A stretch of 64,000 nt of DNA from Streptomyces akebiae (GTDB taxonomy: Bacteria > Actinomycetota > Actinomycetes > Streptomycetales > Streptomycetaceae), in NCBI RefSeq assembly GCF_019599145.1, contig NZ_CP080647.1, positions 7,936,001 through 8,000,000 on the forward strand. Direction: 5' to 3'. Of this stretch, positions 21,749 through 25,490 are shown piece after piece (the first letter of the stretch is position 1; every line of letters begins with the position of its first letter). The translations under genes and the position numbers were made by a program. The notes under the pieces are model-generated. The model ran no database searches. It was not told the origin of the DNA and was given only the letters and a program-made list of their open reading frames with translations.

Positions 21749-21770
21749 GTTCAACCGGTGTTCAGGCAGG
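21749..21770 (+). promoter_or_regulatory. Putative PHO box (PhoP site)
   Basis: Two consecutive 11-bp units, GTTCAACCGGT and GTTCAGGCAGG, match the direct-repeat design of Streptomyces PHO boxes (conserved GTTCA at 11-bp period). It lies 71 bp upstream of a PhoX-type phosphatase start, where a phosphate-starvation activator would be expected. Confidence 0.65.
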
Positions 21771-21841
21771 GGCGCGACCGTGTGGCGCGACACCCGGGGT
21801 CCGCCCCCCCCACGGTCAGCCCACGCCACGCAGGAGACAGC

Positions 21842-23356
21842 ATGTCGCTCACCCGCAGGGACTTCGCCAGACGATCCGCGGCCACCGGAACCGGTGTCGC
21901 CCTGGCCGGCAGCGTGGGCGCACTCGCCACCGCACCGAACGCCCTCGCGTCGACGGACACCGACACGGACGCCTCGGACTCCGAGACGGACGGCGGCGCG
22001 ACAGCGGACGGCACCGAACGCGGGGCGGACCGCCACGGTGGCGTCGGCTACGGACCACTCCTGCCGGACCCCGACGGCATCCTCGCCCTGCCCGCGGGCT
22101 TCACCTACCGGATCATCACCCACAGCGGCAGGACCAGGCTGGAGTCGGGCGAGTTCACCCCGGGCAAGCACGACGGCACCGCCGCCTTCCCCGGTCCCCG
22201 CGGCACCACCCTGCTCGTCAACAACCACGAGCTGAAGGGCCCCCGGGCCAACTGGGAGTTCCCGGTGCCGCTCACCGACGGGCTCGTCTACGACCCGGCG
22301 GCGGCCGGCGGCTGCACGGTGGTCGAGGTACGGCCCGACGGACGGGTCGCCGAGTGGGTCGGCATCGCGGGCACCTCCACCAACTGCGCGGGCGGCAGCA
22401 CCCCGTGGAACACCTGGCTCACCTGCGAGGAGAACTCCGACCGCGCCGGCGTCAACGGCATGACCAAGGACCACGGCTACGTCTTCGAGGTCGACCCCTG
22501 CGACCGCCGCGCCAACCGCGCCCCGAAGCCGCTGAAGTTCTTCGGCCGCTACGACCACGAGGCCGTCGTCATCGACCCCAGGCGCGGCCACGCCTACCTC
22601 ACCGAGGACGCCGCGGCCCCCAACGGCCTCTTCTTCCGCTGGACCCCGCCCCAGGGATTCACCCACGGCCCGGGGAAGTTCCGTACCCTCGCCGACGACG
22701 CGGGCGTCCTCCAGGCCCCCCGGTGCTACGACTCCGGCGGCCGGTTCGTCGACGACCTGTCCCGCGCCACCCGGATCGGCACGGTCTACGGGGTCGACTG
22801 GATCGACGTCCCCGACCGCGACGCCAGGACCGTCGCGGTGCGCAAGCAGTTCACCGACACCGAGATCACCCGCGCCCGCAAGCTGGAGGGCATGTGGTGG
22901 GGCGACGGCGGCGCGTACATCGTCTCCTCGTACGCCCGGGCCGAGAGCCCCGGTGCCGCACACGACGGCCAGGTCTGGTTCTACGACCCCAAGCGCCGCA
23001 CCCTCACCCTGAAGGTCCTCCTCGGCGTCAACCCGGACCCGTCCGCCGACGGCGCCCTCGACGGCCCCGACAACATCACCGTCTCCCCGTACGGCGGCAT
23101 CATCCTCGCCGAGGACGGCGAAGGCGTCCAACACCTGTTCGGCGCCACCGACAGCGGTCGTACCTACCCGATCGCCCGCAACGACCTGGCGATCACATCA
23201 GCTGCTACCGCAGCGGGCGGCACCGAAGAGGAGCCGGAGTACGGCGAGTTCGCCGGCGTCACCTTCTCGCCCGACGGAAAGACCCTGTACGCCAACATCC
23301 AGACCCCGGGAATCCTGCTCGCGATCACGGGGCCGTGGAAGCGGCAGAAGCGGTAG
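21842..23356 (+). CDS. PhoX-type (DUF839) secreted phosphatase
   Basis: A 504-residue protein of the PhoX alkaline phosphatase family (PF05787). The Tat signal is clear (TRRDFARRSAATGTGVALAG), with cleavage near ALAS at residue 36-38. Typical blocks are LLVNNHELKG, STNCAGGSTPWNTWLTCEEN, FGRYDHEAVVIDP, YLTEDAAAPNGLFFRW, DNITVSPYGGIILAED and FAGVTFSPDGKTLYANIQ. PhoX enzymes are calcium/iron-dependent phosphomonoesterases folded as a beta-propeller and exported already folded. The ATG follows an AGGAGA. The PHO-box-like repeat upstream fits phosphate control. Confidence 0.9.
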   Translation: MSLTRRDFARRSAATGTGVALAGSVGALATAPNALASTDTDTDASDSETDGGATADGTERGADRHGGVGYGPLLPDPDGILALPAGFTYRIITHSGRTRLESGEFTPGKHDGTAAFPGPRGTTLLVNNHELKGPRANWEFPVPLTDGLVYDPAAAGGCTVVEVRPDGRVAEWVGIAGTSTNCAGGSTPWNTWLTCEENSDRAGVNGMTKDHGYVFEVDPCDRRANRAPKPLKFFGRYDHEAVVIDPRRGHAYLTEDAAAPNGLFFRWTPPQGFTHGPGKFRTLADDAGVLQAPRCYDSGGRFVDDLSRATRIGTVYGVDWIDVPDRDARTVAVRKQFTDTEITRARKLEGMWWGDGGAYIVSSYARAESPGAAHDGQVWFYDPKRRTLTLKVLLGVNPDPSADGALDGPDNITVSPYGGIILAEDGEGVQHLFGATDSGRTYPIARNDLAITSAATAAGGTEEEPEYGEFAGVTFSPDGKTLYANIQTPGILLAITGPWKRQKR

Positions 23357-23364
23357 TTAATTCA

Positions 23365-23395
23365 TTGGCTCCGCCCTCGGTGCGCCTCCTAGAGT
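23365..23395 (+). promoter_or_regulatory. Putative promoter for the Y-like RNA region
   Basis: TTGGCT (23365-23370) and TAGAGT (23390-23395) with 19-bp spacing resemble a vegetative streptomycete promoter. Initiation about 7 bases after the -10 would fall at 23402-23403, exactly the first base of the terminal stem of the first structured RNA. Confidence 0.5.
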
Positions 23396-23402
23396 GATGC
23401 AC

Positions 23403-23541
23403 GTCCAGGTGCGAAGGCAGGACCTACTTCCACTCATAATGGGGCGGCCGCGGGTTCGAGTCCCGCCACCGGTACCAACACGCCGGTGTAGCTCAGGGGT
23501 TAGAGCACCTACGTCGGTTCCGCCGGCTTCGATCTCTGGAC
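23403..23541 (+). ncRNA. Y-like RNA A with permuted class I tRNA-like head
   Basis: About 139 bases. The terminal stem is 23403-23409 (GTCCAGG) with 23535-23541 (TCTGGAC). A conserved core follows: TGCGAAGGCAG (23410-23420) facing CCGGCTTCGATC (23523-23534), which pairs CGAAG with CTTCG. The head, in order, is: a hairpin TTCCA-CTCATAA-TGGGG (23428-23444); T-arm GCGGG-TTCGAGT-CCCGC (23450-23466); 3' acceptor strand CACCGGT (23467-23473) followed by ACCA; an 8-base loop including that ACCA; 5' acceptor strand GCCGGTG (23482-23488, seven pairs, one G-U); T8 A9; D-arm GCTC-AGGGGTTA-GAGC (23491-23506). This is tRNA order turned inside out, as expected for a Y RNA tRNA mimic whose ends leave at the anticodon-stem position. 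It lies upstream of rsr on the same strand. I infer the RNA from covariation-like pairing; expression is unproven. Confidence 0.82.
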
Positions 23542-23554
23542 ACCCAAAGCTTTA

Positions 23555-23590
23555 CGCACCTCCCGGTGCGATTCGATCTCGGGAGGCGCG
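23555..23590 (+). ncRNA. Short Y-core-like hairpin between the two Y-like RNAs
   Basis: CGC-A-CCTCCCG (23555-23565) pairs with CGGGAGG-C-GCG (23580-23590), ten pairs and one A-C mismatch. Its 14-base loop contains GTGCGA and TTCGATCT, the same bases that flank the stem in the two larger RNAs (GG-TGCG on the 5' side, CTTCGAYC-TC on the 3' side). It may be a head-less third copy of the protein-binding core or a terminator for RNA A. Confidence 0.45.
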
Positions 23591-23600
23591 GCAGATGGTG

Positions 23601-23751
23601 GGTGCCCGGTGCGCAGGCAGCGGATACTTCGGGAACTGGTGGGGGTAACTCCTCATGCGGGTTCGAATCCCGTCATCGACCCGGGGTCGGTGTGGCGGAA
23701 CGGAAGACGCGCCAGTTATAAGCACCGCCGCCGACTTCGACCTCGGGCACC
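23601..23751 (+). ncRNA. Y-like RNA B with permuted class II (Leu-type) tRNA-like head
   Basis: About 151 bases. The terminal stem is 23601-23609 (GGTGCCCGG) with 23743-23751 (TCGGGCACC), nine pairs. The core TGCGCAGGCAG (23610-23620) faces CCGACTTCGACC (23731-23742), nearly identical to RNA A. The head contains AACTGG (23634-23639) pairing with CCAGTT (23712-23717) in the anticodon-stem position. A variable arm with a GGGG/CTCC-type stem follows (23640-23656), then T-arm GCGGG-TTCGAAT-CCCGT (23657-23673). Next come 3' acceptor strand CATCGAC (23674-23680), loop CCGGG, 5' acceptor strand GTCGGTG (23686-23692, all seven pairs), TG, and D-arm GCG-GAACGGAAGA-CGC (23695-23710). The 5' half reads like tRNA-Leu (TGGCGGAA, AGACGCGC), and the long variable arm agrees. 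No own promoter is obvious; it may be co-transcribed with RNA A. Confidence 0.82.
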
Positions 23752-23782
23752 TTCCCTCTGCCGCGCCTCCCCCCAGACAACA

Positions 23783-23852
23783 GATATCTGACACCCGATG
23801 TCTGACACCCGATATCTGAAACCTGATATCTGAAACCTGGTATCCGAGCAGG
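23783..23852. repeat. Array of 14-bp direct repeats upstream of rsr
   Basis: Five consecutive 14-bp units: GATATCTGACACCC, GATGTCTGACACCC, GATATCTGAAACCT twice, and a degenerate GGTATCCGAGCAGG. Three carry the palindrome GATATC. The array is AT-rich against its surroundings and lies 52 bp upstream of the rsr ATG. An iteron-like binding array for a regulator is the likeliest role. Confidence 0.8.
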
Positions 23853-23903
23853 AATTCCACGCACGCGGTCCGCAGTGCCGAAGAGTTCGGGGGGAGTTTC
23901 ATC

Positions 23904-25490
23904 ATGGCGCGGTTCAACACGAAGACCGGAAAGGCGCAGCCCACCTCGCGGGTCACCTCGACGGGGCGTGTGCTCCGCACGTACGAGGGCGGCCGGGGCC
24001 GGGAGCGGGACGAGCGGTCGGAACTCTTTCTGCTGTCGATCGCCAACTTCGTCGCGCAGAAGACCTTCTACGAGAGCGGTGAGGACCGCGACGACCGGTT
24101 CGCCGCGCTCGTCGGCCGGCTCGCCGTCACCGACCCGGTGTGGACGGCCGGCCTGCTCGGCTGGCTGCGTGGCGAGGGCAACCTGCGTACGGCCTCGATC
24201 GTCGGAGCCGCCGAGTACGTCAAGGCGCGGCTCGACGCGGGCGCCACCGATGGGCCCACCAATCGCCAGGTCGTCGACTCGGTGCTGCGGCGCCCGGACG
24301 AGCCCGGCGAACTGCTCGCCTACTGGACCTCGCGCTACGGCCGCACCATCCCCAAGCCCGTGAAGCGGGGCGTCGCCGACGCCGTACGACGGCTCTACAG
24401 CCCCAAGTCGCTGCTGAAGTACGACACCGCGTCCAAGGGCTACCGCTTCGGCGACATCCTCAACCTGGTGCACGCGGCGCCGGACCCGGACAAGCCGTGG
24501 CAGGGGGACCTGTTCCGGTACGCCCTCGACCGGCGCCACAACCCGGACACGGCGGTCGTGCCCAGGTCGCTGCCGATGCTGGCGGCGCACCGTGACCTGA
24601 TGGAGCTGCGGCCCGCGAAGCGGCGCCGGGTCGTGACCGGTTCGGAGGGTGCCCAGCGGCTCGCGGACGCGGGCATCACCTGGGAGGCGCTGGCGGGCTG
24701 GCTGCAGGGGCCGATGGACAAGGCGGCCTGGGAGGCGGTCATTCCGTCCATGGGTGCCATGGCCCTGACGAGGAACCTGCGGAACTTCGACGAGGCGGGC
24801 GTCTCCGACGAGGTCGCGGCGCGGGTGGCGGCGCGGATCAGTGACCCGGCGGAGGTCGCGCGGTCGCGGCAGTTCCCGTTCCGGTACCTCTCGGCGTACC
24901 GGCACGCGCCCTCGCTGCGCTGGGCGTACCCGCTGGAGCAGGCGCTCGGCCACTCGCTGGCCAACGTGCCCGCGCTGCCCGGCCGGACCCTGGTCCTGGT
25001 CGACCGCTCGGGCTCGATGTTCTGCTCCCGGCTGACCGACCGCTCCTCGCTCACCTACGCCGACGCGGCGGCGATCTTCGGCACGGCGCTCGCGCTGCGG
25101 GCGGCGAACGCGGACCTCGTCGAGTTCGGGAGCACGAGCCGGGTGGTGAAGTTCGGTGCGGGCGAGTCCGTGCTGAAGATCATCGGCCGGTTCGGCGACC
25201 TGGGTGGCACCGACACCACCGAGGCCGTCCGTCGCCACTACCGCAAGCACGACCGGGTGCTGATCGTCACCGACGAACAGGCCACCTACAGCCACTACGG
25301 CGACCCGACCGCGCAGCTCCCGGCCCATGTCCCGGTCTACACCTGGAACCTCGCCGGGTACCGGGTGGGCCACGGCCCCTCCGGCAAGGCGAACCGGCAC
25401 ACGTTCGGGGGGCTCTCGGACGCGGCTTTCCGGATGGTCCCGCTGCTGGAGGCGGCGCGGAACGCCGACTGGCCGTGGGCGGCCGGCTGA
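23904..25490 (+). CDS. rsr: Rsr/Ro60 orthologue: TROVE plus vWA domain protein
   Basis: A 528-residue protein. Residues 20-340 form the TROVE ring of helical repeats (ERSELFLLSIANFVAQKTFY, then GLLGWLRGEGNLRTASIVGA; MGAMALTRNLRNFDEAGV). Residues 360-520 form a von Willebrand A domain with an intact metal site (D367, S369, S371 in LVDRSGSM; T436 in GGTDTTE; D457 in VTDEQ). Ro60 family proteins bind Y RNAs and misfolded or damaged RNAs; in Deinococcus a Y RNA tethers Rsr to polynucleotide phosphorylase for RNA decay. Two candidate partner RNAs lie directly upstream. The ATG follows GGGGGGAG. No RtcB ligase or nuclease gene is adjacent. Confidence 0.93.
   Translation: MARFNTKTGKAQPTSRVTSTGRVLRTYEGGRGRERDERSELFLLSIANFVAQKTFYESGEDRDDRFAALVGRLAVTDPVWTAGLLGWLRGEGNLRTASIVGAAEYVKARLDAGATDGPTNRQVVDSVLRRPDEPGELLAYWTSRYGRTIPKPVKRGVADAVRRLYSPKSLLKYDTASKGYRFGDILNLVHAAPDPDKPWQGDLFRYALDRRHNPDTAVVPRSLPMLAAHRDLMELRPAKRRRVVTGSEGAQRLADAGITWEALAGWLQGPMDKAAWEAVIPSMGAMALTRNLRNFDEAGVSDEVAARVAARISDPAEVARSRQFPFRYLSAYRHAPSLRWAYPLEQALGHSLANVPALPGRTLVLVDRSGSMFCSRLTDRSSLTYADAAAIFGTALALRAANADLVEFGSTSRVVKFGAGESVLKIIGRFGDLGGTDTTEAVRRHYRKHDRVLIVTDEQATYSHYGDPTAQLPAHVPVYTWNLAGYRVGHGPSGKANRHTFGGLSDAAFRMVPLLEAARNADWPWAAG

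Follow-up and report, generated by a model that had tools for sequence, protein, structure and literature searches.

Y-like RNAs beside a Streptomyces Ro60-family gene carry heads that imitate tRNA, apparently including an anticodon arm in one of them

Why bacterial Y RNAs imitate tRNA is an open question, and one that a locus in Streptomyces akebiae makes directly testable through its relatives. The locus lies within a 64,000-nucleotide (nt) stretch of DNA (NCBI RefSeq assembly GCF_019599145.1, contig NZ_CP080647.1, positions 7,936,001 to 8,000,000 of the forward strand; hereafter the window, with positions counted from its first letter), where a PhoX gene (21758-23356) is followed in order by two candidate Y RNAs, A and B, and by rsr, a gene for a TROVE/vWA protein of the Ro60 family. 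Comparison across relatives shows, at the level of sequence and predicted structure, that the heads of these RNAs imitate tRNA. RNAs A and B are best read as Y-like RNAs partnered with this Rsr, and we think it probable, with appreciable room for doubt, that they act as tethers, binding Rsr and offering tRNA surfaces to partner proteins.

An initial annotation of the window had placed two Y-like RNAs directly 5′ of a Ro60 orthologue, and both are found there, upstream of a 528-amino-acid (aa) TROVE protein. Both heads follow the order it gave (T arm, 3′ acceptor strand, loop, 5′ acceptor strand, D arm), and all seven acceptor pairs can form in each (CACCGGU/GCCGGUG in A, CAUCGAC/GUCGGUG in B); what it overlooked is an anticodon stem-loop in A and an anticodon stem in B. 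Its inventory was likewise right as to A and B and incomplete beyond them, missing a third Y element between the two and an outer helix round B, and its expectation that linear tRNA finders would miss both RNAs is borne out by ARAGORN, which makes zero tRNA calls in the window. The gene and the elements of RNA A are as follows.

23904-25490, + strand: rsr, TROVE/vWA (Ro60 family) protein, 528 aa (PF05731, E 1e-12; PDB TROVE proteins 9kop and 9l5y)
23403-23541, + strand: RNA A, putative Y RNA with a complete four-arm tRNA head permuted between positions 26 and 27 (comparative structure; covariance-model match of 167 bits, the model including the window sequence itself)
23428-23444, + strand: anticodon stem-loop of RNA A, UUCCA-CUCAUAA-UGGGG (RNAalifold consensus; compensatory changes in 2 of 5 pairs; column pattern)
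23445-23449, + strand: variable loop of RNA A, 5 nt, CGGCC (column pattern)
23450-23466, + strand: T arm of RNA A (RNAalifold; covariation)
23467-23488, + strand: acceptor stem of RNA A, loop-closed, its 3′ strand ahead of its 5′ strand (RNAalifold; covariation)
23491-23506, + strand: D arm of RNA A (RNAalifold)

The window protein belongs to the TROVE family by its domain score (PF05731, 48.5 bits versus a curated cut-off of 23), the closest PDB chains being the TROVE proteins 9kop and 9l5y (E 4.5e-26), and a search of its own 10.5-Mb genome found a single rsr. A protein search across Streptomyces gave matches, some of them weak, in 169 of 295 genomes, and we compared 170 rsr loci in all: 30 from the protein search (window included), the best 80 of 321 named and 60 lower-identity upstream stretches. 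By motif pattern, A is present in 113 of these loci, B in 134 and both in 99, a synteny that supports the earlier proposal that these two Y RNAs are partners of this Rsr. The patterns find none of the locus RNAs in 17 loci, four of which (L113, L147, L168 and L170) are nonetheless found by the covariance model built on A; the remaining 13 (L151-L155, L157-L159, L161, L162 and L164-L166) are not, nine of them being second copies in genomes that also hold a closer TROVE relative and four the sole listed copy. Another second TROVE copy, L169, does match the A model (122 bits).

For RNA A the best reading is a tRNA with its permutation point between positions 26 and 27. From 29 diverse A sequences, and given no tRNA model, RNAalifold returned a Y stem and then a hairpin of five base pairs (bp) whose loop has 7 nt; after five unpaired bases come the T arm (5 bp, 7-nt loop), the acceptor stem (7 bp, loop-closed) and the D arm (4 bp). 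Under this consensus 99.3% of alignment cells are paired. In nine pairs both partners have changed (shuffled mean 3.2, with none of 500 shuffles reaching nine), and sliding the structure by 1-3 columns leaves just 0-1 doubly changed pairs; the four D-arm pairs are invariant and hence outside the reach of this test. Within the first hairpin, whose window loop CUCAUAA holds an anticodon-like CAU at 23435-23437, C-G is replaced by G-C in four sequences and A-U by G-C in one, and the hairpin stands to the variable loop and T arm as an anticodon arm does. Variation is seen at columns 16, 17, 20, 47 and 59, which real tRNA leaves free, and columns 8, 14, 15, 45, 46, 48 and 54-58 change little or not at all, the variable loop thus being almost fixed at 45, 46 and 48 and variable at 47, like that of a real tRNA; the D-loop numbering is approximate, and the column labelled 19 varies too, probably through misalignment. 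With the cut falling between tRNA positions 26 and 27, the Y stem would leave at the junction of D stem and anticodon stem, and this invariant stem holds both ends of the RNA.

When the A heads are un-permuted, ARAGORN calls a tRNA in 112 of 112, in none of 1120 shuffles and in none of 112 reversed joins; in native order, 7 of 113 A RNAs are called. These calls support the acceptor, D and T arms only. We dropped them as evidence for the anticodon arm because 531 of 550 un-permuted heads with a shuffled anticodon hairpin are still called, as are all 112 heads whose halves were exchanged between species; the calls being independent of the hairpin, the case for an anticodon arm in RNA A is made by covariation and the column pattern.

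The anticodon loop of RNA A combines a kept frame with free letters. Nearly all sequences follow the consensus C32 U33 N34 N35 U36 A37 A38, with U33 in 113, U36 in 110, A37 in 103 and A38 in 112 of 113, and 112 A RNAs show twelve anticodon triplets between them (CAU in 48 and GAU in 33 being the commonest; one further A is irregular). Parsimony on the rsr tree assigns 31 changes to position 34, 22 to 35 and 9 to 37, and only 0-2 each to positions 32, 33, 36 and 38. No other column of the RNA changes as often as position 34, whose 31 changes equal those of the fastest third-codon site of rsr (99th percentile 30), and the fastest upstream site has 36; the tree was built from the same rsr sites used as comparison, which may lower the counts at those sites. 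We do not claim positive selection on the anticodon, as third-codon sites and the upstream spacer reach equal or higher counts: positions 34-35 change at neutral speed, so the frame appears to be kept with its letters free, and no arms race is demonstrated. Close species pairs differ in the loop in 19 of 27 cases, many pairs sharing a species and so not being independent. A further candidate property, agreement of the anticodon with the rest of its tRNA, was rejected (the triplet agrees with the nearest own tRNA, mostly Met, Thr, Lys or Arg, in 27 of 112), and RNA A lacks the conserved decoding anticodon that marks a functional permuted tRNA gene. In one locus (L143) the A RNA has lost most of the anticodon hairpin.

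RNA B carries the same permuted arms in a head that is opened at another point.

23601-23751, + strand: RNA B, putative Y RNA whose permuted tRNA-like head is opened within the anticodon loop (RNAalifold; covariation; 60 bits with the A model)
23635-23639, + strand: anticodon stem of RNA B, 3′ strand ACUGG (pairs with 23712-23716; 5 of 5 pairs compensated)
23712-23716, + strand: anticodon stem of RNA B, 5′ strand CCAGU (covariation)
23657-23673, + strand: T arm of RNA B (RNAalifold; covariation)
23674-23692, + strand: acceptor stem of RNA B, CAUCGAC/GUCGGUG, loop-closed (RNAalifold; covariation)

RNAalifold recovered T, acceptor and D arms together with a five-pair anticodon stem, and 98.3% of the cells in an alignment of 31 B sequences are paired under this consensus. 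Changes on both sides were seen in 15 pairs (shuffled mean 7.4; 0 of 500 shuffles as high) and 89 cells (shuffled mean 23.7), compared with 2-5 pairs and 2-7 cells when the structure was slid. Because the anticodon stem opens into the Y stem, B would be cut within the anticodon loop and display no anticodon. Roughly un-permuted B heads are called by ARAGORN in 125 of 132 cases. Of 134 B RNAs, 60 have a Leu-like D arm (UGGCGGAA) and 74 one of another type; a class-II variable arm was considered and set aside, the relevant segment being longer with Leu-like D arms (median 26 versus 16 nt, a difference of about 10 nt) but with overlapping ranges (15-28 versus 13-19 nt).

Around and between these two RNAs lie four further elements.

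23557-23586, + strand: M stub, putative remnant of a third Y RNA that has lost its head but retains the basal stem and the GGUGCG/GAUCUC core (hairpin z -2.94)
23582-23595, + strand: outer helix round RNA B, 5′ strand, its GGAGG common with the M basal stem (pattern versus shuffles)
23757-23770, + strand: outer helix round RNA B, 3′ strand (pattern versus shuffles)
23390-23395, + strand: -10-like promoter box TAGAGT, directly 5′ of RNA A (sequence; columns kept in relatives)

The third RNA, M, stands between A and B at full length (about 75 nt, with a short head) in 127 of the 170 loci and is reduced to its basal hairpin in 19, the window included; its core is the same as that of A and B (GGUGCG...UACUUC...GAUCUC). 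Under a stricter pattern (n = 123), 108 M RNAs form a 7-nt-loop hairpin that begins at UUC. All 108 have a pyrimidine at 32 and U33, 93 have A or G at 37, and 37 different loop sequences occur among them, features that are no more than suggestive of an anticodon arm. The outer helix round B reaches at least 8 bp in 87 of 132 loci, versus 143 of 3000 shuffles, and reuses the GGAGG of the M basal stem, so the two helices would be mutually exclusive; this competition (23557-23595 in the window) might act as a processing or folding switch. Upstream, TAGAGT and TTGGCT (23365-23370) would together make a promoter-like element with a 19-nt spacer, and four of the six columns of the box are conserved in 112-113 of 113 relatives. 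This conserved promoter-like box is the one sign that the locus RNAs may be expressed.

Beyond Streptomyces, the A model, which finds the window's own B at 60 bits, was run against 394 genomes of the class and gave matches at E ≤ 0.001 in 152. Many of the listed matches (positions 30-110) look like tandem tRNA genes, as verified for the genome of the window itself: the anticodon-T-acceptor half of one gene is followed by the acceptor-D half of the next. Such tandem genes serve as a control, and they may have been the origin of the permutation. Full-length matches supplied 40 stretches, some of them from Streptomyces. Out of a set of 81 matches, 72 were examined, leaving aside the window's own two and seven others that were mostly partial. 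The initial annotation had looked to covarying homologues near TROVE genes, and 25 of the 40 stretches have a clear same-strand downstream TROVE gene, within about 300 nt in 22 and at about 0.9 kb in L258; the N-terminal part of the TROVE protein is unmatched in L250 and L276. Of the rest, four have a weak or partial TROVE match and 11 have none, some of these being plain tRNA genes. The 21 TROVE-adjacent loci outside Streptomyces, from five families, hold 44 heads, 41 with a T arm, and among these 41 an anticodon hairpin is in place in 21 (3.8 expected by shuffling), with five perfect pairs in 17 (1.4 expected), U33 in 19 of 21 and a purine at 37 in 18 of 21. Two or three heads with different loops stand side by side in five of the 21 loci (L241-L244 and L246). 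Two stretches (L253 and L255) have Y-like heads with a different core (GGGTCGAAG) beside weakly TROVE-like genes, possibly a second Rsr/Y RNA lineage, and three (L245, L249 and L275) have extra Y cores with other short heads (e.g. UACUUCUGGUNA).

Relatives of this Rsr are also encoded in 84 phage records (some duplicates), 13 of them from Streptomyces phages, and in nine phage stretches 31 Y-type UACUUC motifs precede the Ro gene, those of phage Kela lying behind an RNA ligase gene. The Ro gene sits inside a large tRNA cluster in five of the nine stretches, namely those of four Streptomyces phages and one Arthrobacter phage (L313-L315, L317 and L321). A 7-nt-loop hairpin follows 13 of the 31 motifs (6.9 expected), with U33 in 10 and a purine at 37 in 8. 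In Gordonia phage VanLee an annotated tRNA-Arg(tct) overlaps an A-model match of 97 bits (L316:2704-2775); given such overlaps between tRNA annotations and Y RNA motifs or matches, some phage features annotated as tRNA are probably Y RNAs. The same kind of overlap, between an annotated tRNA and a Y-like motif or match, occurs in GiJojo (L314, Arg cct), Frankenweenie (L319, Pro tgg) and Alone3 (L321, Ser gct).

A permuted head as such has precedent in YrlA. Passages of PMC11472068 describe a YrlA structure that superposes on tRNA with a circular permutation, and passages of PMC8394870 describe likeness to D, T and acceptor arms, modification by DusA and TruB, and reported PNPase binding. YrlA (RF02553; Salmonella structure 6CU1) shares with A and B the position beside rsr, the terminal stem (here with an invariant core), the permuted arrangement of T arm, acceptor and D arm, and a UAC element ahead of the head. 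The Rfam model of YrlA, at positions 14-95, has a closing stem without an anticodon hairpin, in agreement with RNA B at the positions seen, whereas RNA A has a hairpin and a 5-nt variable loop. Rfam at its own cut-offs makes zero calls in the window; at E ≤ 1, RNA A matches RF02553 at 32.6 bits, below the gathering cut-off of 69, and RNA B has no YrlA match. The A score was rejected as evidence because tandem tRNA genes score equally or higher, a pair in the same genome reaching 39.3 bits with Rfam YrlA (and 57.7 with the A model). The Deinococcus Y RNA of RYPER (Rsr-Y RNA-PNPase) is likewise encoded with an Rsr orthologue, a likeness in gene context. The Y RNAs of animal Ro60, whose Ro-binding helix the initial annotation thought similar to the core seen here, are not known to have a tRNA-like head. 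Red algae have permuted tRNA genes in which the 3′ half lies ahead of the 5′ half and the two are joined at the acceptor end; here, by contrast, the head sits in a Y stem beside rsr, with no sign of tRNA maturation. A limited literature search found no report of an anticodon arm in a Y RNA. The permuted head follows the published YrlA design, and a Y RNA that seems to imitate a complete tRNA, anticodon arm included, appears to be a new variant of it.

How might such RNAs work? Under the tether reading introduced above, the locus would supply its own Ro60-like protein with a few Y RNAs, and the basal stem with its almost invariant core would, by analogy, bind Rsr. RNA A would then display a whole tRNA surface, including the anticodon loop; RNA B would display acceptor, T and D arms, its anticodon stem continuing into the Y stem; and the full-length M of relatives would display a lone hairpin like an anticodon arm. 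The heads may hold a tRNA-binding or RNA-degrading partner (PNPase in the published RYPER complexes) against the Rsr ring, and with that partner in place Rsr could work on structured or damaged RNA. On this account the anticodon frame (U33 and a mostly purine 37) would be maintained, with positions 34-35 left free. In its favour are the synteny with rsr, the covariation in A and B, the tRNA-like column pattern of A, the anticodon frame of heads outside Streptomyces, the phage Ro genes in tRNA clusters, and the modification of YrlA by tRNA enzymes together with its reported binding to PNPase. Rsr binding by the core, tethering by the head and the identity of the partner are what we infer, and several observations weigh against the account. 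In the minimum-energy fold of window A, the T, acceptor and D arms form but the anticodon hairpin does not, and that of window B lacks the permuted head; neither RNA folds better than shuffles when taken alone (z -1.18 for A, -0.63 for B), so the case for their structures is comparative. ARAGORN, as noted, is indifferent to the anticodon hairpin of A, and the anticodon likeness of M depends on a lone pyrimidine/purine hairpin. An anticodon hairpin is absent from 20 of the 41 heads outside Streptomyces, the phage hairpin count is only modestly above chance with some of the 13 being T arms, and the 13 divergent Streptomyces TROVE loci have no A-model match upstream.

Alternatively, the heads, arrayed with several different anticodons per genome, could be decoys or guards, baiting or blocking enzymes that cut or modify anticodon loops (VapC, PrrC or colicin-like nucleases), with Rsr holding or clearing the enzyme complex. 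The twelve triplets, the side-by-side heads with different loops, the loop differences between close species (in pairs that are not independent) and the phage Ro genes in tRNA clusters would all suit such a role, as would the proposal, in PMC10264068, that phage tRNAs evade anticodon nucleases through loop changes, and the suggestion, in passages of PMC7790460, that the YrlA domain might act as a competitive inhibitor of an anticodon nuclease. The same passages of PMC7790460, however, mention that no YrlA fragments were seen when tRNAs were cut, and the neutral-like rate at position 34 also speaks against decoys, which we consider unlikely, if the strongest of the rivals. Less likely again is a cis-acting leader, in which A, M and B would form a structured 5′ region controlling rsr through the mutual exclusion of the M and outer B helices: the conserved promoter-like box 5′ of A, the shared GGAGG and the folding of the whole region (23400-23775) better than 100 shuffles (z -3.43) are in keeping with it, but it would need less than two full Y RNAs with compensated heads, and the number and kind of RNAs differ between families.

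Permuted tRNA genes do mature into working tRNAs in some algae, and the un-permuted A heads would pass for tRNAs with ARAGORN; window A scores 0.74 against its nearest own tRNA, where real tRNAs of different kinds have a mean of 0.73. Maturation into working tRNAs is nevertheless very improbable here, given anticodon letters that change at neutral speed, CCA after position 73 in just 21 of 112, and an invariant Y stem tying both ends. Least credible of all is that the RNAs are chance resemblances or remnants of tandem tRNA genes; the scores of the tandem pair with the A and YrlA models speak for this, but the full-length Y-stem matches, covarying acceptor strands and rsr synteny contradict it.

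The related loci form a natural series, from a whole tRNA with its anticodon through a tRNA opened at the anticodon and a lone anticodon-like hairpin to a bare stem, that separates the parts of the mimicry. More speculatively, and with doubt outweighing confidence, actinomycetes and their phages might carry Y RNA arrays that show complete or partial tRNA surfaces, the anticodon loop among them, with anticodons that differ and change freely, and Rsr would employ these RNAs as interchangeable baits for nucleases or modification enzymes that target tRNA. What appears to be a fake and freely changing anticodon in one of these RNAs hints at what Y RNAs may interact with.

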